Shown: positions 2,642 to 19,664 of the stretch, one piece after another | Layout: each line of letters begins with the position of its first letter | Position numbering within the stretch: position 1 is the stretch's first letter | Assembly (NCBI GenBank): GCA_947455865.1 | Contig: CANGQZ010000005.1 | Span: 1 to 39,049, forward strand | DNA: 39,049 bases | DNA from: Sphingomonadaceae bacterium | GTDB taxonomy: Bacteria > Pseudomonadota > Alphaproteobacteria > Sphingomonadales > Sphingomonadaceae | Direction of reading: 5' to 3' | Notes under the pieces: generated by a model | What the model saw: the letters and a program-made list of their open reading frames with translations, nothing else | Told to the model about the DNA's origin: nothing | Database searches by the model: none | Made by a program: the position numbers and the translations under genes

Positions 2642-3379
2642 ATGGCAGGCAGGCTTGAGGGCAAAGTGGCGATCATCACCGGCGCGGCGCGCGGACAAGG
2701 CGCAGACGAGGCGCGCGCGTTCGTGGCCGAAGGGGCCAAAGTGGTGCTCACCGACGTGCTGCCCGAAGTACACTCGGTGGCTGCCGAGCTGGGCGATGCG
2801 GCGGTGGCGCTGGATCACGACGTGACCGACGAGGCGCAGTGGGGCGTGGTGGTAAAGACCGCGCTTGACCGGTTCGGCAAGCTGGACGTGCTGGTCAACA
2901 ACGCCGGGATATTCCGGCCGGGGACCATGCTCGAAACCACCAAGGAGCAGTTCGTCGCGCACACCAACGTCAACCAGCTGGGCGTGTTTCTGGGCATGAA
3001 GGCAGCGGCGCCGGCGATGATCGCCAATGGCAGCGGCTCGATCGTCAATATCGGTTCGGGCGCCGGGCAGCGCGGCTATCCTGGCATCTTCGCCTATCTC
3101 GCCAGCAAGTGGGCGGTGACCGGCATGACCAAGGCAGTCGCGCGCGAGCTGGCGCCGCACAAGATCCGCGTCAATTCGGTCCACCCAGGGCTGATCGCCA
3201 CGCCGATGATCGCCGGCCCTAACGATCAGGCCGCGCTGGCCGAACTGGCCGCAACCGTGCCGCTCGGCCGCACCGGTATCACCGCCGATGTGGTCGAAGT
3301 GGTGATACACTTGGCTTCCGACAAATCGAGCTACTCGACCGGTTCGGAATTCACGATGGACGGCGGCACCGGGCTTTGA
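2642..3379 (+). CDS. SDR-family NAD(P)-dependent oxidoreductase
   Basis: A 245-residue classical short-chain dehydrogenase, cytoplasmic. It has the cofactor loop TGAARGQG, the VNNAG motif, the catalytic Ser (NIGSGAG), Tyr and Lys (YLASK) and the C-terminal DGGTGL. These proteins interconvert secondary alcohols and ketones. The start at ATG 2642 is preferred over the in-frame ATG at 2630 because GGAG (2632-2635) sits 6 bases before it. The stop codon overlaps an ATG of the PQQ dehydrogenase frame (TGATG), so it probably heads an operon SDR-PQQ dehydrogenase-cupin-GST. In this setting it is a candidate alcohol dehydrogenase for the cyclic substrate; exact substrate unknown. Confidence 0.9.
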   Translation: MAGRLEGKVAIITGAARGQGADEARAFVAEGAKVVLTDVLPEVHSVAAELGDAAVALDHDVTDEAQWGVVVKTALDRFGKLDVLVNNAGIFRPGTMLETTKEQFVAHTNVNQLGVFLGMKAAAPAMIANGSGSIVNIGSGAGQRGYPGIFAYLASKWAVTGMTKAVARELAPHKIRVNSVHPGLIATPMIAGPNDQAALAELAATVPLGRTGITADVVEVVIHLASDKSSYSTGSEFTMDGGTGL

Positions 3380-3435
3380 TGCCCTGGGCGGATGCACGGC
3401 GCGGGGGCGCAGGCCCCGAACAGGGGACAGGCGGG

Positions 3436-5805
3436 ATGACGTTGTGGCCGGCACGGATCGTTGCGGCGATCCTTTTCGCGATCGGGCTGGCTGTGGCCGG
3501 CGGCGGAGCCTACCTACTCTTGCTCGGCGGATCGGCCTATTACCTCGTCGGCGGGATCGCGGTGGCGCTGGCCGGATGGTGGACGTGGCGCGGCGAGGCG
3601 CGCGGCGGATGGTTGTACGGGCTGTTTCTGGCCGCAACGATGGGCTGGGCGCTGTGGGAATCGGGACTTGATGCGTGGCAGCTGACGGCGCGAATCTTCG
3701 GCCCGGCGGTGATCGGGCTACTGTTCGCGCTACCCCCGGTGCGCCGCCCGCTGGGCCGCGGTGGCAACGCCGCAGCGCTGGTCGCGCTGGCCGGGGTGGC
3801 GCTGGTATCGGCAAGCCACTTGCGTTCGCCGATGGAGATCGCGGCGCAGGGTGCGGCGGTGCGCGAGCAGCTGGCGATTGCCGGCAATCCTGGCGAATGG
3901 CGGGTGTGGGGCCGTGACGATGGCGGCACCCGGTTTTCACCGGTCAGCCAGATCACGCCAGAGAATGTCAGCAAGCTCAAGTTGGCGTGGCAGTTCGACA
4001 CCGGGATCGATCCGATGTCGCAGCCGACGCCGAGCCCGATGCAGACGACCCCGCTGATGGTTGATGGCAAGCTGTTCTTCTGCACCCAGACCAACGTGGT
4101 CTTCGCGCTCGATCCCGATAGCGGCAAGCAGGCGTGGCGGTTCGATCCCAAGGTCGACCCAGCCGGCGGCTCGGTCGTGCGCACCTGCCGCGGGGTCGCC
4201 TATCACGATGGCGCACCCGGGTTGGCCGACGGCACCGCGCCGTTCTGCGCCCGCAAGATTATCACCGCGACTTATGGCGCGCAGCTGATCGCGCTCGACA
4301 GCCAGACCGGGCGCCTCTGCCCCGGCTTCGGCAATGCCGGCTTCGTCAATCTCAAGGACGGGCTGGGCGAGGTTGCCACAGGGTATTACTATGTCAGCTC
4401 GGCGCCGGGGATCGTGCGCGACACGATCGTGGTTGGCGGCTGGGTGGCGGACAATGTCAGCACTGACGAGCCTTCAGGCGTGATCCGCGGTTTTGATGTC
4501 GCCACCGGCAAGCTGCGCTGGGCATGGGACGCGGGCAATCCCGGCAACCATGCCGCGCCGGCGCCAGGACAGAGCTACACCCGCTCGACCCCCAATTCGT
4601 GGGCGCCGATGAGCGTCGATGCCGCGCTGGGCCTCGTGTTCGTCCCGACCGGCAACCCTCCGCCCGACCATTTCGGGGCCAACCGTTCGCCGCTGAGCGA
4701 GAAATACGGCAGTTCGGTGGTGGCGATCGATGCGGTGAGCGGCGCGGTGCGCTGGTCATTCCAGACCGCGCATCACGATTTGTGGGACTACGACGTTGCC
4801 TCGCAGCCGACTCTGATCGATTTCCCCGGCCCGGGCGGCCCGATCCCGGCGCTGGTCCAGCCGACCAAGCGATCCGAAGTGTTCGTGCTCGATCGGCGCA
4901 CCGGGGTTCCGCTGACCCGGGTGGAAGAACGCCCGGCGCCGCAGCGCGGAAAAGTGCCCGAGGAGCGGCTGGCGCCGACCCAGCCGTTCTCGGTGGGCAT
5001 ACCCGACTTTTCGGGCGGCGTGCTCAGCGAACGGTCGATGTGGGGGATGACCCCGCTTGATCAGCTGTGGTGCCGCATCCGCTTTCGCCAGCTGCGCTAT
5101 GACGGACGCGAGACCCCGCCGGGACTGGACGAATCGATCATCTTCCCGAGCATCGGCGGAGGGCAGAACTGGGGCGGGGTTTCATATGATCCCGAGCGCA
5201 AGCTGCTGATGGTCAATTCGCTGCAGTATGCCAGCCTGATCTACCTGGTCCCACGCGCGGAAACCGACCGGTTGATCGCCAAGGCCAAGGCCAGCGGCGA
5301 CAGCCATAGCACCGCCAACTTCGACATTCCCCAGCCGATGGCGGGAACGCCTTATGGCGCCAAGCTGCGCGGGTTCACCACCCCGTTCGGGACGCTGTGC
5401 AATCCCCCACCATATGGCCGGCTGACCGCGGTGGACATGACCACCGGCAAAGTCCGCTGGCAGCGCCCGGTCGGGACGATGCAGGACAGCGGGCCGTTCG
5501 GGCTGGAATCGGGCCTGAAGATCCCGATGGGCATGCCCGGGTTCGGCGGCACGCTCGTCACCCGCAGCGGGCTGACCTTCTTCGGCGGCCAGAAGGAGCG
5601 GACGTTCCGGGCCTTTTCCACCGAGAGCGGGGCCGAACTGTGGTCGACGCGGATGCCGGCGAGTGGCAATGCCAATCCGATGACTTACCTTGGCCCCAAA
5701 AGCGGCCGCCAGTTCGTGGTGATCGCCGCCACCGGCCACGTAACCTCGCAATCCCTGCCCTTGGGCCGGACCATCCAAGCCTATGCCTTACCGGAGACGA
5801 AGTGA
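3436..5805 (+). CDS. Membrane-bound PQQ-dependent dehydrogenase, glucose/quinate/shikimate family
   Basis: A 789-residue quinoprotein of the mGDH/quinate dehydrogenase family. About five hydrophobic segments at residues 5-130 anchor it in the inner membrane, and the rest is a periplasmic eight-bladed PQQ domain beginning at WRVWGRDDGGTRFSP. Electrons pass to ubiquinone. Length matches mGDH (about 796 in E. coli). The start at ATG 3436 follows GGGGACAGGCGGG and gives the typical MTLWPARIVAA membrane start; an earlier ATG at 3379 overlaps the SDR stop and is possible. No PQQ synthesis genes are in the window. Because it sits between an SDR and a cupin in a catabolic operon, it may oxidise a cyclic polyol or alcohol other than glucose; this is inference. 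Confidence 0.88.
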   Translation: MTLWPARIVAAILFAIGLAVAGGGAYLLLLGGSAYYLVGGIAVALAGWWTWRGEARGGWLYGLFLAATMGWALWESGLDAWQLTARIFGPAVIGLLFALPPVRRPLGRGGNAAALVALAGVALVSASHLRSPMEIAAQGAAVREQLAIAGNPGEWRVWGRDDGGTRFSPVSQITPENVSKLKLAWQFDTGIDPMSQPTPSPMQTTPLMVDGKLFFCTQTNVVFALDPDSGKQAWRFDPKVDPAGGSVVRTCRGVAYHDGAPGLADGTAPFCARKIITATYGAQLIALDSQTGRLCPGFGNAGFVNLKDGLGEVATGYYYVSSAPGIVRDTIVVGGWVADNVSTDEPSGVIRGFDVATGKLRWAWDAGNPGNHAAPAPGQSYTRSTPNSWAPMSVDAALGLVFVPTGNPPPDHFGANRSPLSEKYGSSVVAIDAVSGAVRWSFQTAHHDLWDYDVASQPTLIDFPGPGGPIPALVQPTKRSEVFVLDRRTGVPLTRVEERPAPQRGKVPEERLAPTQPFSVGIPDFSGGVLSERSMWGMTPLDQLWCRIRFRQLRYDGRETPPGLDESIIFPSIGGGQNWGGVSYDPERKLLMVNSLQYASLIYLVPRAETDRLIAKAKASGDSHSTANFDIPQPMAGTPYGAKLRGFTTPFGTLCNPPPYGRLTAVDMTTGKVRWQRPVGTMQDSGPFGLESGLKIPMGMPGFGGTLVTRSGLTFFGGQKERTFRAFSTESGAELWSTRMPASGNANPMTYLGPKSGRQFVVIAATGHVTSQSLPLGRTIQAYALPETK

Positions 5806-7062: not shown

Positions 7063-8700
7063 TCAGCTCATCACGAAACCTTCGTAATCGTTGGCTTTGA
7101 CCTTGCTGACCCGCTCGCGGTAGGCCGGGTTGCCGCCGTTGTAGACCAGCAGTTTGTGGCCGCGCTTCGGGCCCTTGCCGAACTCGCCCCAGAACCATGA
7201 GTTGGTGACGGTGGGCAGCAGGGTCTGCGCGGCAACGTCATAGACGTGCTGGGTCCACTCTTCGGCCTTGGCCTCGTCGGCCTCGACCCGTTCGATCCCC
7301 TGCTCGATGATCTTCGTGAACATCTCGGTCACCCAGTTGACCTGGGCTTCCGCGCAGCGCGGGATGTTGCAGTTGGTCGCGCCGTTGTGCGCGCCGACCA
7401 GCGTGAACAGGTTGGGAAACTCCGGGATCTGCAGGCCGAGATACGTGAATGGCCCATCGGCCCACGATTCCTTCAGCGTCTTGCCGCCGATGCCGTGGAT
7501 GTCCATCTGCTTCAGCCCGCCGATGATCGCATCGAACCCGGTGGCATAGATGAGGATGTCCAATTCATGGAACGCGTCACTGGTGCGGATGCCGGTCGGG
7601 GTGAATTCCTCGACCGGGGTTTCCACCAGATCCACCAGCGTAACGCTGGGCCGGTTGTACGTCTCGTAATAGCCCGATTCCATCGGCACCCGCTTCAGCC
7701 CGAAGCCGTGATCCTTGGGGATCAGCTTTTCGGCAATCTTCGGATCCTTGACGCGCTGGCGGATTTTCTTCGCAATGAAATCGGTGATGTAGCCGTTCGA
7801 AACCGGGCTGGTGAACATGTCGGCATAGTGGCCGACCCAGATCTCGAAGCCCGACTGGTTGTACACTTCCTCGAACACCGCCTCGCGCTCTTCAGCGGTG
7901 GTGCCCTCGCTGCTCGCGAACCGGAAATCGTGCTGGAAGCCCGAGGTCGTGCTTTCGCAGCGGGCGAATATGTCGTTGTACCGCGCCTTGATCTCGGCCA
8001 TCCGCTCCGGCTCGATCGGCTTGTTGCATAGCGGCGCGCACCAGTTGGGGTGGCGCTGGAACACGGTCAGGTGCTCGGCCGTCTTGCCGACTTCGGTGAT
8101 GATCTGCACCCCGGTCGAGCCGGTCCCGAACACGCCCACCCGCTTGCCGGTGAAATCCACTTCCTTGCCGCCAAAGCCGCTGCGGGCATGCGGCCAGTAA
8201 TACGAATGGTAGCTTTCGCCGCGGAACAGATCCATGCCGGGGAACGACGGCATGATCGGGTTGGACAGCGCGCCCACCGCGGTCAGCAGCCAGCGCGAGG
8301 AGAGCGCTTCGGCATTGTCGAGTTCGACCGTCCAGCTGTTTGCGGCGTTATCGAACGCGGCCTTCGTCACACGGGTGTTGAAGGTGATGTCCTTGCGCAG
8401 GTCCATCTTGTCCGCCGCGCGGCTGAAGAATTCCATCACTTCGGGCTGCGAGGCGAACTCGTTGCTCCAGTCCCACTCCTGAAGGAGATCGGGCAGGAAC
8501 GAGTAGGCATAAGTATAGCTCTCGGAATCGAGCTTGCAGCCGGGATAGCGGTTCATGTTCCAGGTGCCGCCGACATCGCCGTTCTTCTCGATGATGCGGA
8601 CGGAAAGGCCCAGCTGGCGCAGCTTCCACATCGTGTACATCCCGGTCAGTCCGGCCCCGATGATGATCGCGTCGTAATCGAACTTTGCTGCTTCTGCCAT
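7063..8700 (-). CDS. Baeyer-Villiger monooxygenase (FAD/NADPH)
   Basis: A 545-residue class B flavoprotein monooxygenase. It has the FAD Rossmann motif GAGLTG (about residues 15-20), the Baeyer-Villiger fingerprint FRGESYHSYYWP (159-170, matching FxGxxxHxxxWP), the NADPH motif GTGSTG (192-197) and the late ATGFD segment. These cytoplasmic enzymes insert oxygen next to a ketone to give an ester or lactone. The start at ATG 8700 follows AGAGGA; the longer ORF-track frame has no support. It is transcribed alone on the minus strand. With an esterase, SDRs and an ene-reductase nearby, it is the best candidate for ring expansion of a cyclic ketone. It could also act on a linear or steroid ketone. 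Confidence 0.93.
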   Translation of the reverse strand: MAEAAKFDYDAIIIGAGLTGMYTMWKLRQLGLSVRIIEKNGDVGGTWNMNRYPGCKLDSESYTYAYSFLPDLLQEWDWSNEFASQPEVMEFFSRAADKMDLRKDITFNTRVTKAAFDNAANSWTVELDNAEALSSRWLLTAVGALSNPIMPSFPGMDLFRGESYHSYYWPHARSGFGGKEVDFTGKRVGVFGTGSTGVQIITEVGKTAEHLTVFQRHPNWCAPLCNKPIEPERMAEIKARYNDIFARCESTTSGFQHDFRFASSEGTTAEEREAVFEEVYNQSGFEIWVGHYADMFTSPVSNGYITDFIAKKIRQRVKDPKIAEKLIPKDHGFGLKRVPMESGYYETYNRPSVTLVDLVETPVEEFTPTGIRTSDAFHELDILIYATGFDAIIGGLKQMDIHGIGGKTLKESWADGPFTYLGLQIPEFPNLFTLVGAHNGATNCNIPRCAEAQVNWVTEMFTKIIEQGIERVEADEAKAEEWTQHVYDVAAQTLLPTVTNSWFWGEFGKGPKRGHKLLVYNGGNPAYRERVSKVKANDYEGFVMS

Positions 8701-8812
8701 GTGGTCCTCTTGATCCCGTGCCTGCCACCTTCCGCATCGACGCGCGGGATTGGGCTTCTCCACTTATCCGAATTACTGTCGGATTTCAAAACGAATATTG
8801 CCGGGAGGAGAA

Positions 8813-9098: not shown

Positions 9099-11744
9099 TT
9101 AGCGGATCTTGAATCCAAGGGTGATCCCGTAAGTCACCGGCTTGCCGGCCAGGCGCGCCGAGCTGTCGCTCGACGGGATGACCGCAGTCCAGTAGTACTT
9201 GTTGAACAGGTTCTTGCCCCAGAGCATCACCCGCCATGCGCCGTCCGGACCTTCGTAACCAAGCCGGGCGTCGACCGTGGCATAGCCATCGATCATGTAG
9301 GGATACTTGCCCACGCCCGGAGCGATCCGATAGCGGACGTTGTCGCCCACCGGCAGGGTGGTGTCTTCGCCACCGATCGCCGCAGTCTGGTTGCTGCGGG
9401 CGCTGACGGTGAAGCCGGCGAACGGCGCGCCGCCGTTCGACAGTTGGTGACGATAATCGACGCTGACCGAGCCCGACCATTCCGGCGTGTACGGAATACG
9501 CGAACCGGCAAGGTTTTCAGTGTTCGGCGTCCCACCGGTCGGATCGAAGTTGCCCGGACGCGAGTCGATGTTGTTGTCGACGCCGCCGAAGATGTCATAG
9601 CCGGTGAACTTCGTGATCTTCGAGTTGAGGTAGGTCACCGCGCCGGTGATCGTCAGGCCTTCGACCGGACGGATCGTAGCATCGGCTTCCACACCCCAGA
9701 TGCGCGACTTGGGTACGTTGACCAGTGCGTCGAGCGTGCCGAAGATGAAGTCGAAGATCTTGCCGCGAACCTGCTTGTCCCGATAGTCCATGTAGAACCC
9801 GGCGAGGTTGAAGCTAATCTTGCCGTCCATCGCCTGCGCCTTGAGGCCGGCTTCGTAGGCAGTCACCTTCTCCTGAGTCACCGGCAGCGCCGAGGTGAAA
9901 GCAGCCGCGGCGAGTGCCGGGAAGCTGCCAGCCTTATAACCGCGCGAGACGTTGGCATAGAACAGCACCTTGTCGGTGATCTTGTAGTCCATGCCCAGAC
10001 GCCACGAGAAGTTGTGCTGCTTCAGCGTAGCTTCAAACGGGATACCTGGGACGCCGAGACCAAGGAAACCGTCGGTGGTGTAAGGCGAGGTAACGGTGAC
10101 GTCCTTCGGAATAGGCCCGACGATGCCATTGACGGAGTAGCAATCGCTCGGCCCGATCGGATCGAATTCGAACCCGGAGAGGCCGCCGATGATGTTGAAC
10201 AGCTTGTCAACGTTGCCGTTGGTGGCTGTGTAGCCGCAGTTGTAGGCCTTGATTTCGGAGTGCGTATAACGGCCCGAAGCCTTGACGGTAAACTGATCGC
10301 TCACATCGTATTCAAGGTTACCGAACACGGCGGCGTTCTTGATCTTCTGGTTCAGAATGTCGCCGCTGTGGTTGATGTAGAGGTTGTTCGAGAAGAAGTT
10401 CGAGTTGGCCCAGTAACGCAGTTGCTGGTCCTCGTGGGTCTTGCTGTCTTCATAGTTGCCGCCGATCAACCAGCGCAGCGGGCCCTTGCCATTGTTGGCA
10501 ATGCGCAGTTCCTGCGTGAAGCTCTTGATCGAACCTTCGCCGCTCTGAAGGTCATAGGCGACCAGCGCCATGCCGTCACCGTCGGTGCGCTGCTGCTGCT
10601 TGTAATCGATGTACGAGGTGAGCGAGGTGATCGTGGCAAAACCGACATCAAGGTCAGCGCGCAGCGATCCCTGAACGAACTTGCGGTTACCATAAGGGCT
10701 GAACTGGGTCGCAGTCGCGGTGGTCGGGTCGCTGACGCCGAAATTGCCCAAACCGTTTTCGCTCAGGTCAAGCGTAGCCGTGTTGGGGTCAAGCGCCTGC
10801 GCAGTCCAGTCTGCCGCACGCGAGTTGAACGGCGAGAACGGATAGCAGATCTGGCCTGAGGCACAGCCGGCCGGAGTCACCGAATAGCCGTTACGCTGCG
10901 GATCGACGAGCGGCGTGGCGTCCAGTGCCTTGCCGCCAGTGCCGATCTGCTCGTGCGTAGCGATCAGCTGCTGCGCCTGCGGTTCGGAATTGTCATGCCA
11001 GGCGTTGGCCGACAGGTTCAGCTTGAGGTTGCCCACTTCCGCTTCGATCTGGAGACGACCGGCCAGGTACGAATCCTTACCGTTGGTGTCGTTGCGGGTG
11101 TAGCTGTACTGCCAGCCATCGGCGTTGCGCGCGGTGATCGCCAGACGGGCGCGGACGTTGTCCGAGAGCGGGCCGCTGATGTAAGCATTGGCATCAACCG
11201 CGTTGAACCGGCCGAAGCTGACGTCGCCGCCGGCCTGGAAGGTCTTGGTCGGCTTGGCGGCGATGTAGTTGATCGCGCCGCCGGTGGAGTTCTGGCCGAA
11301 CAGGGTGCCCTGCGGACCCTTCAGCACTTCGATGCGCTCAAGGTCATAGGCCGAGTGCGAAGCGAGCACCGGGAACGACAGCGGCACCTGATCGACGTAG
11401 ACCGAAACCGCCGGATAGACGCCCAGCGAGCTTTCGTTGAAGCCGATGCCGCGCAGCGTGAAGATCGGGGTGTTGGTGGTCGAAGGCGTATAGATCAGGC
11501 CCGGCGCGATCCCGGCGACGTCTTCGAGCGAAGCGACGCGGCGGGTCTGCAGTTCGGCGGCGCCGATCGCGGTGATCGTCAGGCCGACCTTGCTGAGGTT
11601 TTCCTCGCGCTTGTTGGCGGTAACGACGATGTCGTTGCTGCTAGCTTCATCAGCGGCGTTCTGCGCCTCCTGCGCCTGCGCCATCGTGGGCAGGATGAGC
11701 CCCGCACACAGACCGGCCGAAACGTACAACCAGACTTTTTTCAT
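9099..11744 (-). CDS. TonB-dependent outer-membrane receptor
   Basis: An 881-residue TonB-dependent transporter. A signal peptide with cleavage after AQA (about residue 25) is followed by a DIVVTANKRE segment near the TonB box, the plug domain (RRVASLEDVAGIAPG, then LRGIGFNESS, then LERIEVLKGPQGTLFGQNSTGGAIN) and a beta-barrel ending in a terminal aromatic-poor GFKIR. It moves a ligand across the outer membrane using TonB-ExbBD energy. The start at ATG 11744 follows GGAGAGG; the ORF-track start is 12 bases earlier. In sphingomonads such receptors often import hydrophobic or plant-derived substrates. Its position among oxygenase genes suggests it takes up the substrate of this cluster. A siderophore role is possible, but no iron genes are near. 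Confidence 0.94.
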   Translation of the reverse strand: MKKVWLYVSAGLCAGLILPTMAQAQEAQNAADEASSNDIVVTANKREENLSKVGLTITAIGAAELQTRRVASLEDVAGIAPGLIYTPSTTNTPIFTLRGIGFNESSLGVYPAVSVYVDQVPLSFPVLASHSAYDLERIEVLKGPQGTLFGQNSTGGAINYIAAKPTKTFQAGGDVSFGRFNAVDANAYISGPLSDNVRARLAITARNADGWQYSYTRNDTNGKDSYLAGRLQIEAEVGNLKLNLSANAWHDNSEPQAQQLIATHEQIGTGGKALDATPLVDPQRNGYSVTPAGCASGQICYPFSPFNSRAADWTAQALDPNTATLDLSENGLGNFGVSDPTTATATQFSPYGNRKFVQGSLRADLDVGFATITSLTSYIDYKQQQRTDGDGMALVAYDLQSGEGSIKSFTQELRIANNGKGPLRWLIGGNYEDSKTHEDQQLRYWANSNFFSNNLYINHSGDILNQKIKNAAVFGNLEYDVSDQFTVKASGRYTHSEIKAYNCGYTATNGNVDKLFNIIGGLSGFEFDPIGPSDCYSVNGIVGPIPKDVTVTSPYTTDGFLGLGVPGIPFEATLKQHNFSWRLGMDYKITDKVLFYANVSRGYKAGSFPALAAAAFTSALPVTQEKVTAYEAGLKAQAMDGKISFNLAGFYMDYRDKQVRGKIFDFIFGTLDALVNVPKSRIWGVEADATIRPVEGLTITGAVTYLNSKITKFTGYDIFGGVDNNIDSRPGNFDPTGGTPNTENLAGSRIPYTPEWSGSVSVDYRHQLSNGGAPFAGFTVSARSNQTAAIGGEDTTLPVGDNVRYRIAPGVGKYPYMIDGYATVDARLGYEGPDGAWRVMLWGKNLFNKYYWTAVIPSSDSSARLAGKPVTYGITLGFKIR

Positions 11745-12534
11745 TGCCCTCTCCACTTCATCAAAAACAGTTAATCAGGTGACTTACGCGATGGTCCGAA
11801 ACGCTGCCGAAACCGGCTGTTGGATCAAGTTCGGACCGATAGTATTCCAAATGCCCAGTGAAACGCCGCGCCGATGTTCGGCTGGAATGGCTGCAAACAG
11901 CAACGCTGACGGTATCGCCCGGTCTCCTCTCCTGCCCTGTCCGCGCGCCGCCTGAAGCGGGTTCACAGACCAATTCTTATGCTCTGCAGCGGCGCATATA
12001 TCGGTTCGACCATTGCGACAATCCAAAACACGACGGCTTGTCGGTTCCGGCACACACAAACTTCTGCGCCTGTGGCAAGAATACATCGCTTTGCCGAACT
12101 GAGCCGCCGCGGCCACTTCAGCGTGCCCTCGGCACGGTGAACGCGGCGCCGCTGCCGGGGGCCACGCCAGTCAGCACCGCAGCAGCAGCGCATATCAGCC
12201 TTGATCGTGCCCGGACGGCGCCCTCGATCATCGTATCCCCCAATTCGGCCCGGGCCATGCCCATCACCGGCTATTATTTGCATCCGTGCGCGAAACACTC
12301 CGCACTGACAAGTGACTGATCCCCGCTAGTCGGAGCAGCGCGGACTGCCTTTAGCAAGCGCCCGGCGCGATGCCTTATAGCATCCCATTATGCGCGCCAT
12401 CCCGGCTTGCCATAAGCCGCAAACCCGTTCGGCTGTGCGCAGCAATTGGCGCATCGACAGCGCCCGGCGCATCCGATAGGCACTCGGAAAATGCCGCGTG
12501 GGCACCTTCGCCCCGGCCAGCACGGAGGATCGCC
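11745..12534. promoter_or_regulatory. 790-bp divergent intergenic region with inverted repeats
   Basis: I see no convincing gene in this gap between the divergent TonB receptor and ene-reductase genes. It contains an 8-bp inverted repeat GGTCCGAA (11793-11800)/TTCGGACC (11830-11837) upstream of the receptor gene. It also contains CGGTTCGACCATT (12002-12014), which shares the 12-base core GGTTCGACCATT with a site at 17593-17604 and fits the TGGTnnnACCA pattern of FadR-type GntR operators. The ribosome site GGAGG (12524-12528) belongs to the ene-reductase. Promoter boxes could not be assigned with confidence. Confidence 0.45.
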
Positions 12535-13773
12535 ATGCCCGCACATCTCAACAGCCCGTTGACCCTACCCTGCGGCGCGGTGCTGAAAAACCGCATCGCC
12601 AAGGGGGCGATGACCGAGGGGCTCGCCAACCCGCTCAATCAGGCCACCGAAGAACATGTTACGCTCTATCGCCGCTGGGCTAAGGGCGGCTGCGGCATGC
12701 TGCTGACAGGCAACGTCCAGGTCGATCGCCGCCATCTCGAACGCCCCGGCAATGTCGCGATCGACGGCAACGACGGGCTCGCCGCGTTGGCGGCTTATGC
12801 CGCGGCAGGCCGCGAGAACAACACCCACATCTGGATGCAGATCAACCACCCGGGCCGCCAGGCCGGCGTAACTGCGGAAGGGCTCGCCGGCCCCTCGGCA
12901 GGGACGTACGGTGATGCCCCGGTGCGCGCGCTTGATGGCGCAGAGGTCGAAGATCTCGTCCGGCGTTTCGTCCATGTCGCACGCACCGCGCAGCAGACCG
13001 GGTTCACCGGCGTGCAGGTCCACTCCGCGCACGGCTATCTGATGAGCCAGTTCCTCAGCCCGCTGACCAACCACCGCACCGATGCCTGGGGCGGCAGCCT
13101 GGAAAACCGGGCCCGTCTGCTGGTCGATGTCACCCGCGCGATCCGCGCTGCGGTGGGCGCGGAGTTTCCGGTCTCGGTCAAGCTCAACAGCTCGGACTTC
13201 CAGAAGGGCGGGCTGACCGAGGACGAATCCTGCGAAGTGGTCCGCTGGCTGTGCGACGCGGGGATGGACCTGCTCGAGATTTCCGGCGGCAATTACGAAT
13301 CGCAAGTGATGGTCGGCCGCGATCAAAGTGGCGAGCTGATCAGCCGCACCAAAAAGGCCTCGACCATCGCGCGCGAGGCCTACTTCCTCGAATTCGCCGC
13401 CAAGCTGCGCCCGCAGGTCACCGTGCCGCTGATGGTCACCGGCGGCTTCCGCACGCTCAGCGCGATGGAAGCGGCGCTGGCTTCAGGTGAAGTTGACGTG
13501 ATCGGCCTCGCCCGCCCGCTCTGCATCGACGCCGATCTGCCCAACCAGCTGCTCGCCGGCACCATTGCCCGCCTGCCCTCGCCCGAAGAGGAAACGACAG
13601 TCGATACCGGCTCGTCGATCGCCTATTACTTCAATCAGGTGCGCAAGCTTGCCGCCGGCGAGGACGCCGATCGCGACATTGACTGGGCCGAGCAGCTCCA
13701 GCGCCACAGCGATTTCGATGGCGCGGCCGAGGTGCGCTACCGCGCGGCGCTATCGGAGGCGGCAACAGCCTGA
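12535..13773 (+). CDS. NADH:flavin oxidoreductase, Old Yellow Enzyme family
   Basis: A 412-residue FMN-binding TIM-barrel oxidoreductase. It shows NRIAKGAMTEG near the N-terminus, MQINHPGRQ, and the signature HGYLMSQFLSPLTNHRTDAW followed by GGSLENRARL. The phosphate-binding end has VTGGFRTL and GLARPLCID. Family members reduce the C=C bond of alpha,beta-unsaturated ketones. No C-terminal FeS/FAD domain is present, so it is the short form rather than the 2,4-dienoyl-CoA reductase type. The start at ATG 12535 has GGAGG at the right distance; the 55 residues added by the ORF track are not conserved. It begins the operon ene-reductase, SDR, LLM. An enone reductase ahead of Baeyer-Villiger oxidation is the inferred role. 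Confidence 0.9.
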   Translation: MPAHLNSPLTLPCGAVLKNRIAKGAMTEGLANPLNQATEEHVTLYRRWAKGGCGMLLTGNVQVDRRHLERPGNVAIDGNDGLAALAAYAAAGRENNTHIWMQINHPGRQAGVTAEGLAGPSAGTYGDAPVRALDGAEVEDLVRRFVHVARTAQQTGFTGVQVHSAHGYLMSQFLSPLTNHRTDAWGGSLENRARLLVDVTRAIRAAVGAEFPVSVKLNSSDFQKGGLTEDESCEVVRWLCDAGMDLLEISGGNYESQVMVGRDQSGELISRTKKASTIAREAYFLEFAAKLRPQVTVPLMVTGGFRTLSAMEAALASGEVDVIGLARPLCIDADLPNQLLAGTIARLPSPEEETTVDTGSSIAYYFNQVRKLAAGEDADRDIDWAEQLQRHSDFDGAAEVRYRAALSEAATA

Positions 13774-13815: not shown

Positions 13816-14583
13816 ATGGCAGGAACGCCGCTGGTCGATTTCACCGGCCGCCACATCGCCGTGATCGGCGCGGCCGGAGATATCGGCTCGAGCATCGTTG
13901 CCCAGTTGCTCGATCTCGGCGGCCGGGTCACCGCGCTTGACCGGGATGCCGCCGCGCTCGGCCGGCTCGCGGCGTTGCCGGGGGCGCGAGGCGCACTGGC
14001 GACGGTCGCGGTCGATGTCGCCGACGAAGAGGCAATGGCCGCGGCCTTCGCCGGGCTTGGCCCGATTGACGGGCTGGTCAACGGCGCCGCGATCGAACAT
14101 CGCCCTGCTGCCACGCCCGAATTCGATACCACGTTGTTCCGCAAGGTGATGGACGTCAACGTCACCGGTGTGTTCCTCGGCCTCAAATACGGCATCCCGC
14201 TCTTGCGCCGGCCGGGCGGATCGGTGGTCAACTTCGGCAGCACCGGCGCGATCAAAGGCGCGAACGGGATGAGCGCTTATGTCGCCTCGAAGCACGCCGT
14301 GCTCGGCCTCACCCGCTGCGCCGCGATCGAATTCGGGCCCGAAGGCCTCCGGGTCAACGCGATCTGCCCGGGGCCGGTCGAAGGTCGCATGATCGATGCG
14401 ATCATGGGCAGCGAGCCCGGCCAGCCCTCGGCGGCGGCAGAGGCGCGCATGGCGGTCATCCCCAGCCGCCGCTTCGCCCGCCGCGAGGAGGTCGCGCGGG
14501 TCGTCGCGTTCCTGCTGTCCGACGCCTCCGAATACGTCAACGGCGCCACTTATATGGTCGATGGCGGCATTTCGGCGATTTGA
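13816..14583 (+). CDS. SDR-family oxidoreductase with NGAA in place of NNAG
   Basis: A 255-residue classical SDR with cofactor loop GAAGDIGSS, catalytic Ser in NFGSTGA, the Tyr-Lys pair in AYVASKHA and DGGISAI at the end. The usual NNAG motif reads VNGAAIEHR, so the structural Asn that shapes the active site is altered; enzymes with this change are often still active. The start follows AGGAGAGGCAC. It lies 42 bases after the ene-reductase gene and 119 bases before the second LLM gene, in the same direction. Probably an alcohol/ketone oxidoreductase of the pathway; substrate unknown. Confidence 0.88.
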   Translation: MAGTPLVDFTGRHIAVIGAAGDIGSSIVAQLLDLGGRVTALDRDAAALGRLAALPGARGALATVAVDVADEEAMAAAFAGLGPIDGLVNGAAIEHRPAATPEFDTTLFRKVMDVNVTGVFLGLKYGIPLLRRPGGSVVNFGSTGAIKGANGMSAYVASKHAVLGLTRCAAIEFGPEGLRVNAICPGPVEGRMIDAIMGSEPGQPSAAAEARMAVIPSRRFARREEVARVVAFLLSDASEYVNGATYMVDGGISAI

Positions 14584-14702: not shown

Positions 14703-15860
14703 ATGAAATTCATCGAAGAGCCCATGCGTTTCGGCCTGTTCTCCGGCCCGTACCATCGCCCGGACATCAGCCCGCTGATGGCCTTCCAACAGGACATGGA
14801 ACTGATCGAGAATCTTGACCGGGTCGGCTTCGATGAAGTCTGGATCGGTGAGCACCACTCCGGCGGGGTCGAAACGATCGCCTGTCCCGAACTGATGATC
14901 GCCGCTGCAGCCGAGCGGACCAAGCACATCAAGCTCGGCACCGGCGCGGTGACGATCCCCTATCACAACCCATTCCAGGTAGCCGAGCGGATCGTCCAGC
15001 TCGATTACATGACGCGCGGGCGGATGATGTTCGGCGTCGCCCCAGGCCAGCTGGTGCAGGATGCGCAGATGGTCGGGCTCGATCCGATGAACAACCGCCG
15101 CATGCTGCAGGAAGCGCTCGATGTGATCATCGCCCTGTTCAAGGGTGAAACGGTGACGAAGAAGACCGACTGGTTCAACATGGTCGAGGCGCGGCTGCAG
15201 CTGCTGCCCTATTCCAACTTCGACATGGCCTGCGTCAGCGTGATGTCGCCGTCTGGTCCGATCACCGCGGGCAAGTACGGTATGGGCATGTTGTCCGTCG
15301 CTGCAACCAATCCGATCGGCGTCGAAATGCTGCTGGAACAGTGGCAGATCGTCGAGAATGAATCGGCCAAGCATGGCCACGTCGCCAACCGGCGCGACTG
15401 GCGCCTGCTGGCGCCGATGCACATCGCCGAAACCTATGAGCAGGCGGTTGACGACGTGCGCTACGGCCTGTGCAAGATCGAAAACTACCGCGATCACATC
15501 AACCCCGGCGCGGGGATAGACTGGTCGAGCACCGAAAAGGCGGTCGAGCAGCTCAACGAGAATGGCTTCGCCGTGATCGGCACGCCTGAGATGGCGCGCA
15601 CCCAGATTCGCCGGCTGCAGGAAAAATCGGGCGGGTTCGGCTGCCTGATGCTGATGGGCGCAGATTGGGCCTCGCACTCCGCCACGCTGCACAGCCACGA
15701 ACTGTTCGCGCAGGAAGTGATCCCCTACTTCCGCAGCGGCTTCCTCGCCCCGCAAAAGAGCTTCGATGAAGTGATGGCGACCGGCTATTCCGGCGCCGAA
15801 ATCACCGCCAAGGCGCAGCAGGCGATGATCGCATCCTACAAGCAAAAAGAACACGGCTGA
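14703..15860 (+). CDS. LLM-class flavin-dependent monooxygenase, limonene monooxygenase-like
   Basis: A 385-residue luciferase-family monooxygenase. The start MKFIEEPMRFGLFSGPYHRPD, the IGEHHSGG motif near residue 50, LGTGAVTIPYHNP and GRMMFGVAPGQL are typical of the subgroup often labelled limonene 1,2-monooxygenase or alkane/terpene monooxygenase. It would consume reduced FMN and O2. GAGG lies just before the ATG. The upstream gap has ACATCGGAAAT, similar to the ATGTTCGGAAAT site near 2500. It is followed by a hairpin and then the second hydrolase gene. The terpene label is a family resemblance, not proof of substrate. Confidence 0.88.
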   Translation: MKFIEEPMRFGLFSGPYHRPDISPLMAFQQDMELIENLDRVGFDEVWIGEHHSGGVETIACPELMIAAAAERTKHIKLGTGAVTIPYHNPFQVAERIVQLDYMTRGRMMFGVAPGQLVQDAQMVGLDPMNNRRMLQEALDVIIALFKGETVTKKTDWFNMVEARLQLLPYSNFDMACVSVMSPSGPITAGKYGMGMLSVAATNPIGVEMLLEQWQIVENESAKHGHVANRRDWRLLAPMHIAETYEQAVDDVRYGLCKIENYRDHINPGAGIDWSSTEKAVEQLNENGFAVIGTPEMARTQIRRLQEKSGGFGCLMLMGADWASHSATLHSHELFAQEVIPYFRSGFLAPQKSFDEVMATGYSGAEITAKAQQAMIASYKQKEHG

Positions 15861-15915: not shown

Positions 15916-15953
15916 ATAACAAGCGCCCGTGCAAGGGCGAAGAGGTGACGAGG

Positions 15954-16772
15954 ATGCAGAAAGTTACCCTGCCGACCGGGCCGACCGTTGCCTATGAAGA
16001 CAGCGGCGGCTCCGGCACCGCCATCGTGTTCAGCCACGGCTACATGATGAACCGCACGATGTTCGATGCCCAGTTCGCCGGCCTCGCCGACCGCTGGCGC
16101 TGCATCGCGTGGGACGCCCGCGGCCACGGCGAGACCGACTGGGAAGGCTCGTTCAATTACTGGGATTCGGCGCGCGACATGCTCGCGCTGTGTGATGCCC
16201 TCGGGCTCGACAAGGTGGTGCATGTCGGCATGAGCCAGGGCGGGCTCGTAGGCATGCGCGCGGCGCTGCTTCATCCCGAGCGGTTCTACGGCATCGTCCA
16301 GCTGGCGACTCAGGCCGGGGTGGTGCCGGAGAACGAGGCCAACGCCGGCTTTGGCGATCACGTCATGGCGTGGATCGATCAGGGACCGAACGAAGCGCGG
16401 CTGGCGTTCATGGGCAACCTGATCCTTGGCCCGGGCGTCGACCATGCTTACTGGCACAAAGCGTGGAAGGCGATGCCGCTCGCCAAAGTCCGCGACGCGA
16501 CCAGCGCGCTGATGACGATCGACGAGCTGTGGGACCAGCTGCACGAGGTGAACGTCCCCCTCGCCACGATCCACGGCCTCGCCGATATCGCCACCTCGCA
16601 CGAGCTGGGCTTGCGCACGCCGATGGCGGCGCCCGATCCGCGCGGGGTAACGCTGATCCCCGGCGGACCACATGCGGTCAACGTCAGCCATCCGGCGCGG
16701 GTCAACAAGGCCATCGCCGATTTCATCGAGGAACTCGCGGCTGAAAACCCCGCGATCAGGGAGAATGCATGA
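15954..16772 (+). CDS. Alpha/beta-fold hydrolase
   Basis: A 272-residue alpha/beta hydrolase without a signal peptide. It has the oxyanion segment FSHGYMM, WDARGHGETDW, the nucleophile elbow VGMSQGG and a late His in GGPHAVNVSHP. The ORF track begins at GTG 15945, but ATG 15954 has AGAGG about 8 bases upstream and is preferred. The stop overlaps the next SDR start (ATGA), so the two are translationally coupled. It belongs to the family of lactonases, esterases and C-C hydrolases. With the HSL esterase it gives the cluster two different hydrolases, one of which may open a lactone. Confidence 0.88.
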   Translation: MQKVTLPTGPTVAYEDSGGSGTAIVFSHGYMMNRTMFDAQFAGLADRWRCIAWDARGHGETDWEGSFNYWDSARDMLALCDALGLDKVVHVGMSQGGLVGMRAALLHPERFYGIVQLATQAGVVPENEANAGFGDHVMAWIDQGPNEARLAFMGNLILGPGVDHAYWHKAWKAMPLAKVRDATSALMTIDELWDQLHEVNVPLATIHGLADIATSHELGLRTPMAAPDPRGVTLIPGGPHAVNVSHPARVNKAIADFIEELAAENPAIRENA

Positions 16773-17512
16773 TGAGCTTGGGTATTGAAGGCAAAGTCGC
16801 GCTCGTCACCGGCGGCGCATCGGGGATCGGCGAAGCCTGCGTCAGGCTGCTGCATGCCGAGGGCGCCAAAGTGCTCGTCGCCGATATCGACGAAGCCGCC
16901 GCCACGGCGCTCGCCGCCAGCCTCGGTGCCAATGCCGCCGCCGTGCGCACCGACATTGCCGACGAGGCTTCGTGCCAGGCGATGGTCAAGGCCGCGATCG
17001 ATCATTTCGGCGGGCTCGATATCGCGGTCAACAACGCCGGCATTTCGAGCGTGCTGACCCCGCTCGAGGAACTCTCCGCGGCCGAATGGCGCCGGGTGGT
17101 CTCGATCAACCTCGACGGCCAGTTCTACTGCCTCAAGGCCGAGATCCCTGCGATGAAGGCCAACGGCGGCTCGATCATCAACATTGCCTCGATCATGGGC
17201 GCGATCGGGCGTGATGGCGCCGCAGCCTACATCGCCGCCAAGCATGGCGTCGTCGGGCTGACTAAGGCCGCCGCGCTCGAATGCGTGGCTCACAACATCC
17301 GCGTCAATTCGGTCGGCCCGGGCTATGTCGATACCCCGCTGCTGCAGAAGGCCACGCTCGACAAGCTGAACGAGATTGCCGCGCTGCACCCGATGAACCG
17401 GCTGGCCCGCCCGTCCGAGATCGCCGCGATGGTCGGCTTCCTCGCGTCATCCGGCGCTAGCTTCGTCACCGGGGCCTACTATCCGGTCGATGGCGGCTAT
17501 CTCGCCCAGTAA
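16769..17512 (+). CDS. SDR-family NAD(P)-dependent oxidoreductase
   Basis: A 247-residue classical SDR with TGGASGIG cofactor loop, ADID after beta-2 (suggesting NAD preference), VNNAGISS, catalytic Ser in NIASIMG, YIAAK and the terminal VDGGYLAQ. The start overlaps the hydrolase stop by four bases; a second ATG follows immediately (16772). It is the third SDR of the cluster and, being paired with a hydrolase, may oxidise the hydroxy acid released when a lactone is opened; this is inference. Confidence 0.9.
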   Translation: MMSLGIEGKVALVTGGASGIGEACVRLLHAEGAKVLVADIDEAAATALAASLGANAAAVRTDIADEASCQAMVKAAIDHFGGLDIAVNNAGISSVLTPLEELSAAEWRRVVSINLDGQFYCLKAEIPAMKANGGSIINIASIMGAIGRDGAAAYIAAKHGVVGLTKAAALECVAHNIRVNSVGPGYVDTPLLQKATLDKLNEIAALHPMNRLARPSEIAAMVGFLASSGASFVTGAYYPVDGGYLAQ

Positions 17513-17607: not shown

Positions 17608-17653
17608 GCATCGTGCAAAAAAGTGGGAACCGGTTTTTTGCGAAAAACGATGC
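17608..17653. repeat. Long imperfect hairpin repeat (REP/BIME-like)
   Basis: GCATCGT at 17608 pairs with ACGATGC ending at 17653, and the inner GCAAAAAA pairs with TTTTTTGC around GTGGGAACCGG. I recognise this AAGTGGGAACCGG-centred palindrome as a dispersed repeat of alphaproteobacterial genomes. It lies between the SDR and the DUF7064/7065 gene and might also end the upstream transcript. Confidence 0.6.
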
Positions 17654-17739: not shown

Positions 17740-18663
17740 ATGCACGCGTTCAAGCCGACCGACCATCTGCGTCACCCGCCGAGCCCCGACGGGCGGATGC
17801 GCGATTCGCTGTTCTGGCAGACGGTGATCGCCGAAGAACGGCTTTGCTTCCAGACTTACTTGTTCCTCACCGCCGAGGGTAAGGCCGGGCTCAACATCGC
17901 GCTGTGGGGCGGCGAGGACGAGAAATACCGCTGCGCCGAGTTTCAGCAGGGCGAAGTGCCCGCAACGATGGACTTCGACGATTTTGCCTTCGAAGGCTTC
18001 AAGCTCGGCAAAGTCCGTTTCGGCGGTCCGGCCAAAGTCTCGTTCAGTGGAAAGCGGCTCAAAGCAGAATTCGAGTTCACCGGCCTCCACGATGCGTTCA
18101 GTTATCGCAGCAACCCTGATGGCCTGCCTAGCTGGATGGCGACTGACCGTTATGAGCAGACCGGCCGGATCAAGGGCTGGATCGAAACGCCCGATCGACG
18201 GATCGAGCTCGACCGCATCGGCCACCGCGATCATTCGTGGGGCAACCGCAGCTGGGGCCTTCCGCAGCACTGGAAATGGTTCTGCGCCTATACTCCCGAT
18301 GGGTCGATCATGCTCAACGGCTGGTTCTGGATCGCCCGCGGCGAATATGGCTGCGCCGGCTATGTGGTGAAGGACGGCGAACTTTCCGCCATCGCCCATA
18401 TGCGGCCCAAGGCCGGCTACGATCCCGACATGAGCCAGCGGCGGATGAGCGTGGCGATCCACGATGTCGCCGGCCGCGTTACGCAGCTTGAGTTTGAGCG
18501 TTTCGGCAACTTGCGCCTCCCCGCCAACGACAAGGTTGGCACGATCATTCAGGAATCGGGCTGCTTCGCCACGATCGACGGCAAGGACGGCAGCGGTCAG
18601 TTCGAAACCCAGTGGCAGCAGGCCTACATCGATCATCTGGCGGAATCAGGCCTGACCGGATGA
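17740..18663 (+). CDS. DUF7064/DUF7065 protein, CrtC/AttH-like lipocalin fold
   Basis: A 307-residue protein of uncharacterised type now filed under DUF7064/DUF7065 and distantly like the AttH/CrtC (carotenoid hydratase) beta-barrel family. The central GHRDHSWGNRSWG motif (about residue 165) followed by WKWFCAY is its hallmark. No signal peptide is seen. The ATG follows GGGGAGAGG. Its stop overlaps the start of a phosphotransferase gene (ATGA), a pairing that implies joint function. CrtC-type proteins add water to isoprenoid double bonds, so a hydratase acting on a terpenoid is conceivable, but the family has no assigned reaction that I can name. Confidence 0.75.
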   Translation: MHAFKPTDHLRHPPSPDGRMRDSLFWQTVIAEERLCFQTYLFLTAEGKAGLNIALWGGEDEKYRCAEFQQGEVPATMDFDDFAFEGFKLGKVRFGGPAKVSFSGKRLKAEFEFTGLHDAFSYRSNPDGLPSWMATDRYEQTGRIKGWIETPDRRIELDRIGHRDHSWGNRSWGLPQHWKWFCAYTPDGSIMLNGWFWIARGEYGCAGYVVKDGELSAIAHMRPKAGYDPDMSQRRMSVAIHDVAGRVTQLEFERFGNLRLPANDKVGTIIQESGCFATIDGKDGSGQFETQWQQAYIDHLAESGLTG

Positions 18664-19664
18664 GCTGGGACTGGGATGACGCCAGCCGGGCGAAACTCGC
18701 CGAGTTTCTGGCCCGGCATGGCCTGATGGACGGCATGCCGCAAATCACCCCGATCGGCGATGGGCACTCCAACCTCACCTACCGGCTCACGCGCGGCGGC
18801 CGCGCGCTGGTGCTCCGTCGCCCCCCGCCGCCACCGCTCCCGCCCGGCGCGCACGATGTGCTGCGCGAGGCACGGCTGCTCAGCGCACTGGGGCCGGCCG
18901 GCCTTGCTGTCCCGCGCATCTTTGCCACCGGCGCAGCGGGCGACCTGTTCGACGTTCCGTTCTACCTAATGGACTATGTCGAAGGTACTGTGATCACCGG
19001 GGCGATGCCCGCCGATTTCGTCGCACCGGCGGCGCAGCGCGAGCTGGGCGAAGCCTTTGTCGACGGCCTGATCGCGCTTCACCGGATCGATCCCGCGACA
19101 GTCGGGCTCGCCGATTTCGGACGGCCCGAAGGGTTCAACGCGCGCCACCTCAAACGGATCGCCGGGCTGGTGACCGAAGCTGGCGCGATCCGCCCGGAAT
19201 TCGCCGAAGTCCACGGCTGGCTCGCCGCCAATGTCCCGGCCGAAACCGGAGCGGCGATCATCCATAACGATTATCGCCTTGGCAATGTGATGTGGGCCAA
19301 GGGCCGCCCGGCGCGGCTGGCGGCAATCCTTGATTGGGAACTGGCGGCGCTGGGCGATCCGGTAATGGATTTCGCTTATCTGCTCGGCTCGCTCCCCGAA
19401 GGTGGCCGCTCGAACACTCCGGTGCAGGATTTCGCCTCAGAAGCCTACGGCCCCGGCTTTCCCTCCCGCGCCGAACTGGTCGCGCGTTATGCCGCCGCGC
19501 TGCCCTACGATACCTCGGCGCTCGATTGGTTCATGGCCTTCGTCCACTGGAAGCTGGCGACGCTCTACGATTATTCGCGCCGGCGCGGGGCCGATCCCTA
19601 TTATGCCGACGAAACGCAGGTGCCGCGATTCCTGGCCGAGGCCCGCAGGTTTACAGGGTTGTAA
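18660..19664 (+). CDS. Phosphotransferase family protein (APH/ACAD10-like kinase)
   Basis: A 334-residue kinase of the aminoglycoside phosphotransferase (APH) fold. The N-lobe has GDGHSNLTYRL and VLRRPP; the catalytic loop is IIHNDYRLGNVM (H-N-D in place of the common H-G-D) and the metal-binding segment is AILDWELAALGDP. Such proteins phosphorylate small-molecule hydroxyl groups; relatives sit beside acyl-CoA dehydrogenases in lipid and terpenoid degradation. The start ATG overlaps the DUF7064/7065 stop, so the ORF-track start at 18612 is rejected. A hydroxy-acid or alcohol kinase working on the product of its partner is inferred. It is not evidence of antibiotic resistance. Confidence 0.85.
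   Translation: MSWDWDDASRAKLAEFLARHGLMDGMPQITPIGDGHSNLTYRLTRGGRALVLRRPPPPPLPPGAHDVLREARLLSALGPAGLAVPRIFATGAAGDLFDVPFYLMDYVEGTVITGAMPADFVAPAAQRELGEAFVDGLIALHRIDPATVGLADFGRPEGFNARHLKRIAGLVTEAGAIRPEFAEVHGWLAANVPAETGAAIIHNDYRLGNVMWAKGRPARLAAILDWELAALGDPVMDFAYLLGSLPEGGRSNTPVQDFASEAYGPGFPSRAELVARYAAALPYDTSALDWFMAFVHWKLATLYDYSRRRGADPYYADETQVPRFLAEARRFTGL

Follow-up and report, generated by a model that had tools for sequence, protein, structure and literature searches.

The window analysed here, a 39,049-nucleotide stretch of Sphingomonadaceae DNA (contig CANGQZ010000005.1), carries two overlapping genes on its forward strand. The first (17740..18663, from the start ATG at 17740 to the stop TGA at 18663) encodes a 307-aa DUF7065/DUF7064 protein, a candidate phosphate-eliminating C-O lyase resembling 25-phosphosteroid lyase (25-PSL) according to Pfam, profile and fold matches. 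The second (18660..19664, forward strand) encodes a 334-aa small-molecule kinase with a predicted APH fold, placed in the ACAD11/LvaA type by its Pfam APH match, PDB matches and catalytic residues. The stop TGA and the start ATG share an ATGA at 18660..18663 (forward strand), and similar overlaps occur in orthologues. A mechanical ORF call starts the kinase at GTG 18612; comparison with orthologues favours ATG 18660. Against Pfam, the first protein scores 68.5 bits for DUF7064 (cut-off 24.7) and 26.7 bits for DUF7065, just under the cut-off of 27; the second scores 158.5 bits for APH (cut-off 23.2). Coordinates and Pfam results agree with the first-pass annotation, which described a DUF7065/DUF7064 gene coupled through ATGA to an APH-fold kinase. 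A literature search for DUF7064 returned no mention of the family. The 227-bp gap 5' of the DUF gene contains AAAGTGGGAACCGGTTTT, an 18-base sequence with a palindromic core (window 17620-17637). A check on whether it might be a repeat or an operator gave only two genomic copies, the second at C99:444-461.

The neighbouring genes encode redox enzymes, hydrolases and a transport receptor, most of which have counterparts in the closed genome G090 (percentages below refer to the cluster in that genome). They include a PQQ-dependent membrane dehydrogenase (3376..5805, forward; 67%), a Baeyer-Villiger monooxygenase (BVMO; 7063..8763, reverse; 74%), a TonB-dependent receptor (9099..11756, reverse; 52%), an Old Yellow Enzyme (OYE) family FMN oxidoreductase (12370..13773, forward, its true start probably downstream; 60%), and an SDR oxidoreductase (13816..14583, forward; 66%). 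These are followed by a luciferase-like flavin monooxygenase (14703..15860, forward; 76%) and an alpha/beta hydrolase (15945..16772, forward; 61%), whose gene overlaps that of a further SDR oxidoreductase upstream of the DUF gene (16769..17512, forward; 70%). In total, the window holds three SDRs, two hydrolases and also a second luciferase-like protein. The best PDB match of the BVMO is OTEMO of the camphor pathway (3uov, 576 bits), an enzyme whose substrate is a CoA ester. The luciferase-like protein best matches 3,6-diketocamphane 1,6-monooxygenase, a weak match of 71 bits over residues 8-126. An orthologue of this luciferase-like gene elsewhere (L097, G072 C147) is 77% identical and carries one in-frame TAA. 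Farther along the same contig (window 32650-38887), a phage-type integrase, an Abi_2 protein, a serine recombinase and an integrase-core transposase-like ORF constitute a mobile element.

In G090, the counterparts of the OYE, SDRs, luciferase-like monooxygenase, hydrolase, BVMO, PQQ dehydrogenase and TonB receptor cluster within 30 kb. The orthologous DUF/kinase pair is absent from that cluster; its position in G090 is 708591, among genes for aromatic ring cleavage. The G090 cluster instead encodes two different DUF7064/7065 proteins and three different APH-type kinases, with one DUF7064 gene followed directly by a kinase gene. Because an otherwise conserved cluster has the same type of module in non-orthologous form, the step performed by the module appears to belong to the pathway. 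This arrangement argues, at the level of gene content, that the module is tied to an alicyclic, possibly terpenoid, pathway. The terpenoid-like breakdown setting proposed earlier is supported to the extent that the pair probably acts on a hydroxyl in an alicyclic or terpenoid-like pathway.

Orthologous pairs remain adjacent in several other replicons, with identities of 48-59% for the DUF protein and 48-55% for the kinase. These occur in Novosphingobium colocasiae (L007), a Novosphingobium MAG (L008), the Novosphingobium resinovorum plasmid pSA1 (L085), G090 (L033, at 708591) and, in a different phylum, a Mycobacterium paragordonae plasmid (L083). Their gene junctions overlap or abut, as ATGA, TTGA or TGATG. 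A contig scan with the DUF protein gave three loci, and further loci were gathered by genome searches and plasmid tblastn. Among 47 DUF7064-family loci collected regardless of kinases, some of them non-independent and some partial, a same-strand APH-kinase domain lies within 300 bp at 19 and within 1.2 kb at 11 more (30/47 in total). About one third of the 47 thus have no adjacent APH kinase on the same strand within 1.2 kb; eight of those lacking a kinase share the motif RDHSWGPR(V/I) and belong to a single subfamily. Of the 11 DUF7064 genes in the closed genome G090, seven lie no more than 1.5 kb from an APH gene on the same strand, where null means are 0.15-0.18 such neighbours (0.15 under random placement). 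When all positions were rotated together, seven was reached in 0.04% of trials. In each of the 11 plasmid records that contain a DUF7064 relative, an APH or EcKL kinase is adjacent or in the same gene run; the kinase of H1, an unannotated record, was placed by a separate search, and H3, a near-copy of H4, was left unopened. Moreover, pairwise distances in a set of 18 DUF proteins track those of the partner kinases (r=0.87, Mantel p=2e-4). The pairing is therefore real and beyond chance. The neighbour count called for at the outset shows the two families to be conserved neighbours, and the claim that they form one unit is borne out by this adjacency together with their co-divergence.

The relationship of the DUF protein to 25-PSL becomes apparent at sequence level with a broad profile only. 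A profile of 40 diverse family members matched 25-PSL in the PDB (9fzn, E=4.2e-11; 9g4c, 1.9e-9), the next match being AttH at 0.014. A profile of seven close orthologues gave weak matches, namely a CrtC-domain structure (E=0.016) and 25-PSL (0.11). Neither one remote DUF7064 member searched with phmmer nor a type-B member had a match in the PDB. In the reverse direction, an N-terminal fragment of 25-PSL matched DUF7065 alone in Pfam, below threshold. An AlphaFold model of moderate quality (four sequences; pLDDT 72, pTM 0.78) predicts a two-domain barrel fold, in accordance with the PDB matches. Foldseek placed 9g4c and 9fzn first against the PDB (2e-12, TM 0.69-0.70 on the query), with about 13% identity to 25-PSL in the structural alignment. 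AttH scored almost equally, followed by kievitone hydratase and fungal Diels-Alderases. The 25-PSL structures were released in January 2026, and 9g4c shows the enzyme bound to phosphate and to desmosta-1,4-dien-3-one, the alkene product.

Conserved residues point in the same direction. In the motif R163-D-H-S-W-G-N-R170 (18226..18249, forward strand), D164, S166, W167, G168 and R170 are retained by all 40 family members of the profile. The corresponding 25-PSL motif is RDRSWG, and D164 aligns with its second position, which is Asp in 9fzn and Asn in 9g4c; the depositors presumably made this change to stop catalysis. One DUF7064 protein of the G090 cluster (L108 18810-19820) has the Trp of SWG replaced (WRDISAGPR) and keeps the Asp. 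By profile and predicted fold, the nearest characterised function to the DUF protein is phosphate elimination. Lyase and hydratase are inseparable by fold alone because kievitone hydratase has the same fold, but the sequence profile and the kinase partner separate them in part. Pfam CrtC (PF07143) had no match on the DUF protein, which matched DUF7064/7065 only, and a CrtC carotenoid hydratase identity was rejected on that basis. A PF07143 search in 142 genomes of the class returned one match, too few for a profile comparison. The earlier label "CrtC-like" thus holds for the fold but not for the family, the CrtC-domain structure being reached at E=0.016 at best.

The kinase was compared with the PDB through a profile of eight orthologues and relatives. 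The strongest matches were 9o56 (2e-71), 3dxp (9e-56) and ACAD11 (5e-48), followed by Rv3168 (3ats, 2e-28) and 25-hydroxysteroid kinase (25-HSK; 9fsg, 2e-24). The catalytic residues D204 and N209 and the Mg-binding D225 are present. ACAD11 D220, N225 and R176 align with D204, N209 and R162 of the window kinase, R162 being invariant; in ACAD11, D220 and N225 are catalytic and R176 contacts CoA (PMC12440821). A structural model of moderate quality (three sequences, pLDDT 66) matched 3dxp first, 25-HSK second and fourth, and Rv3168 third. The 25-HSK matches include 9ft5, which contains ADP and a 25-phospho-steroid. An orthologue of 25-HSK was considered and rejected, as the kinase is closer to ACAD11 and others by profile score. 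Profile ranks, aligned residues and model matches together therefore point to the ACAD11/LvaA type and away from orthology with 25-HSK. Kinases of this type require CoA thioesters, and the window kinase may act on a CoA ester as well.

Many terpenoids and steroids, and pollutants such as tert-butanol, contain a tertiary alcohol group, which is not directly oxidisable. Sterolibacterium denitrificans dehydrates cholesterol metabolites at their tertiary C25 alcohol at the expense of ATP, by way of a 25-phospho intermediate (PMC7411048). In this route, 25-HSK phosphorylates the tertiary C25-OH, and a separate C-O lyase, for which no candidate lies near the 25-HSK gene, was predicted to eliminate the phosphate; the tertiary phosphoester has a phosphoryl transfer potential close to that of ATP (PMC8449060). 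The ACAD10/11 and levulinate pathways use a related kinase to phosphorylate a 4-hydroxyacyl-CoA, from which the phosphate is subsequently removed by an acyl-CoA dehydrogenase (PMC12440821). Since the hydroxyl is phosphorylated before it is lost in all these cases, the same order is proposed here. By sequence, modelling and analogy, the pair is probably a kinase/lyase module for ATP-dependent alcohol dehydration, which first phosphorylates its substrate and then eliminates the phosphate.

Under this proposal, the kinase (18660-19664) would transfer the ATP gamma-phosphate to the hydroxyl of an alcohol, most likely a tertiary or otherwise non-oxidisable one, present either free or as a CoA thioester. 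The DUF7065/7064 protein (17740-18663) would bind the phosphoester in its CrtC/AttH-like two-domain barrel and eliminate phosphate. The probable catalytic residue is Asp164, which is invariant within the RDHSWG motif. The resulting alkene would be usable by downstream enzymes. Baeyer-Villiger oxidation and lactone hydrolysis could generate such an alcohol, as a lactone formed beside a quaternary carbon would yield a tertiary alcohol on hydrolysis, a situation we infer for the window. Two elements of the first-pass annotation are not supported here. It had considered a hydratase-like first reaction, while the nearest characterised relative of the DUF protein, 25-PSL, eliminates phosphate in what amounts to a net dehydration. 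Its order of hydration before phosphorylation should likewise be reversed, given that the kinase acts first in the nearest relatives and the partner removes the phosphate. Its description of the step as undescribed is accurate in part: the reaction type has been published for cholesterol side chains (PMC7411048, PMC8449060), and what would be new is the coupling of the genes, the aerobic-type cluster and the ACAD11-type kinase. Literature searching turned up no relevant work on the phosphorylation of tertiary alcohols during the breakdown of terpenoids.

Alternative explanations differ considerably in plausibility. Hardly credible is an antibiotic-type phosphotransferase lying by accident beside an unrelated gene: the APH fold and weak NCBIfam matches to resistance kinases are compatible with it, but all NCBIfam resistance models fall far under their cut-offs, and the pairing is kept across two phyla with translational overlap and with the G090 statistics described above. 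Accidental pairing was consequently dropped as contradicted by the conserved neighbourhood. An aminoglycoside, macrolide or peptide-antibiotic resistance kinase was also rejected, the best NCBIfam resistance model reaching 27.8 bits against a cut-off of 390. Less remote, though still improbable, is a sequence in which the DUF protein, acting like CrtC or kievitone hydratase, hydrates an alkene and the hydroxyl so formed is the target of the kinase. Kievitone hydratase is indeed among the fold matches, and a CrtC-domain structure tops the weak matches of the seven-sequence profile. However, the DUF protein has no Pfam CrtC match, the E-value of 25-PSL with the broad profile is eight orders of magnitude below that of AttH, the nearest kinases act ahead of elimination (PMC8449060; PMC12440821), and a tertiary phosphoester with a transfer potential near that of ATP would be an odd end point (PMC8449060).

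The kinase might instead phosphorylate a gamma-hydroxyacyl-CoA, as LvaA and ACAD11 do, with an acyl-CoA dehydrogenase encoded elsewhere performing the elimination and the DUF protein serving as an accessory or isomerase. The profile match to ACAD11 (5e-48) and the alignment of its CoA-contacting Arg176 with the invariant R162 speak for such a role, as do acyl-CoA dehydrogenases near orthologous or related kinases at L007, L083, L084 and L088, the last being an Arthrobacter locus where the kinase gene overlaps an acyl-CoA dehydrogenase gene. We regard it as unlikely all the same, as neither an acyl-CoA dehydrogenase nor a CoA ligase was found in the window, and the DUF protein, the constant neighbour of this kinase orthologue group, matches a known phospho-lyase. 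A variant of the kinase/lyase proposal, whose probability overlaps with that of the proposal itself and is not additive to it, has the module act on a tertiary or gamma-hydroxy acid in CoA-thioester form, which the kinase would recognise as ACAD11 does. The conserved Arg of an ACAD11-type kinase, the beta-oxidation neighbours in the Mycobacterium operon and the CoA-ester substrate of OTEMO, the nearest BVMO structure, make this variant a tentative option, against which stand the lack of a CoA ligase in the window and the free steroid substrate of the sole characterised lyase relative. Phosphorylation followed by elimination by the DUF protein remains the preferred interpretation.

The genomic settings of the pair are diverse. 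In other genomes, the orthologous pair lies in clusters with ring-hydroxylating dioxygenase and extradiol genes or, in M. paragordonae, in a beta-oxidation operon with HMG-CoA lyase. A Rhodococcus ruber megaplasmid (L084 3572-19035) carries a similar operon, with acyl-CoA dehydrogenases, a thiolase, a CoA-transferase, HMG-CoA lyase and enoyl-CoA hydratases, in which the kinase is kept and the DUF gene is absent. Differing settings, together with the R. ruber and Arthrobacter loci, suggest that the substrate may vary and that the kinase can work with different partners. A second, divergent pair type (L086 11926-17382, L087 10988-14605, L034, L046, L049, L052) consists of a DUF7064 protein, a larger kinase and a small protein of about 160 aa without a Pfam match. 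It often lies next to alkane monooxygenase genes, together with a second DUF7064 protein, a zinc alcohol dehydrogenase and a Y_phosphatase3 phosphatase. Ecdysteroid-kinase-like (EcKL) proteins take the place of plain APH kinases beside DUF7065/7064 on a Mycobacterium avium plasmid and a Diaphorobacter plasmid (L090 3585-6807, L095 4728-8848). A cytochrome c oxidase subunit III-like protein and a Pfam-less membrane protein also recur near DUF7064 loci (L052 3739-5074, L048 2331-3703, L083 3718-5093), in sphingomonads and on a mycobacterial plasmid.

To our knowledge, one dedicated kinase/lyase pair was known before, in an anaerobic bacterium where the surroundings of the kinase gene revealed no lyase gene. 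This chemistry had been known from the anaerobic breakdown of cholesterol alone, but the pair of genes is found repeatedly in clusters for aerobic degradation in two phyla. What is most likely new, as read from gene content, is a tertiary-alcohol kinase/lyase dehydration that is gene-coupled, set in an aerobic-type cluster and served by an ACAD11-type kinase. The halves are translationally coupled in Pseudomonadota and Actinomycetota, with several copies per genome. An evenly balanced proposition is that DUF7065/DUF7064 proteins are general phosphate-eliminating lyases that, with neighbouring APH or EcKL kinases, act as modular ATP-dependent dehydratases opening tertiary-alcohol dead ends in aerobic terpenoid or alicyclic breakdown, possibly including Rv3168-Rv3169. 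Two Pfam families lacking a function, and many genes annotated as "phosphotransferase family", would thereby gain a testable one, for which the coupled loci supply ready-made enzyme pairs.

Several known systems resemble parts of this locus. Among solved structures, the window BVMO and luciferase-like protein come closest to OTEMO and the diketocamphane monooxygenases of the camphor pathway, respectively, the latter match being weak, and the window has no P450 or CoA ligase. A plain camphor pathway was rejected, as OTEMO-like and DKCMO-like relatives are the only ones of its enzymes in the window (P450cam and OTE-CoA ligase are absent there), and we know of no kinase/lyase pair in that pathway. 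Rv3168 of Mycobacterium tuberculosis is a solved APH-fold relative of the window kinase with a distant score, and the NCBIfam family of Rv3169 is the best, sub-threshold, match of the DUF protein. Rv3168 and the Rv3169 family are thus distant relatives of the two halves (L083 17974-19931; NCBIfam NF053593; PDB 3ats). Judging from their locus numbers, the two are presumably neighbouring genes and may be a kinase/lyase pair; the titles and abstracts of the literature naming Rv3169 give no function. The CrtC/AttH/kievitone hydratase superfamily shares the two-domain barrel fold with the DUF protein, which differs in having no Pfam CrtC match, a profile far closer to 25-PSL and a kinase partner.

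LvaA/LvaC and mammalian ACAD10/ACAD11 have kinases of the same subfamily and follow the same logic, in which a hydroxyl is phosphorylated so that phosphate can leave (PMC12440821). Their eliminating partner is an acyl-CoA dehydrogenase, whereas that of the window kinase would be the DUF7065/7064 protein. The 25-HSK/25-PSL system of anaerobic cholesterol breakdown has a kinase gene without a nearby lyase candidate (PMC8449060), while the window genes overlap. It is also an anaerobic steroid system, in contrast to an aerobic BVMO cluster with no evidence of steroids, and its kinase belongs to a different subfamily from that of the window, which is nearer ACAD11. Nonetheless, both halves of the window pair are relatives of 25-HSK and 25-PSL in family and fold, and the Asp of the DxSWG motif is common to the two systems.
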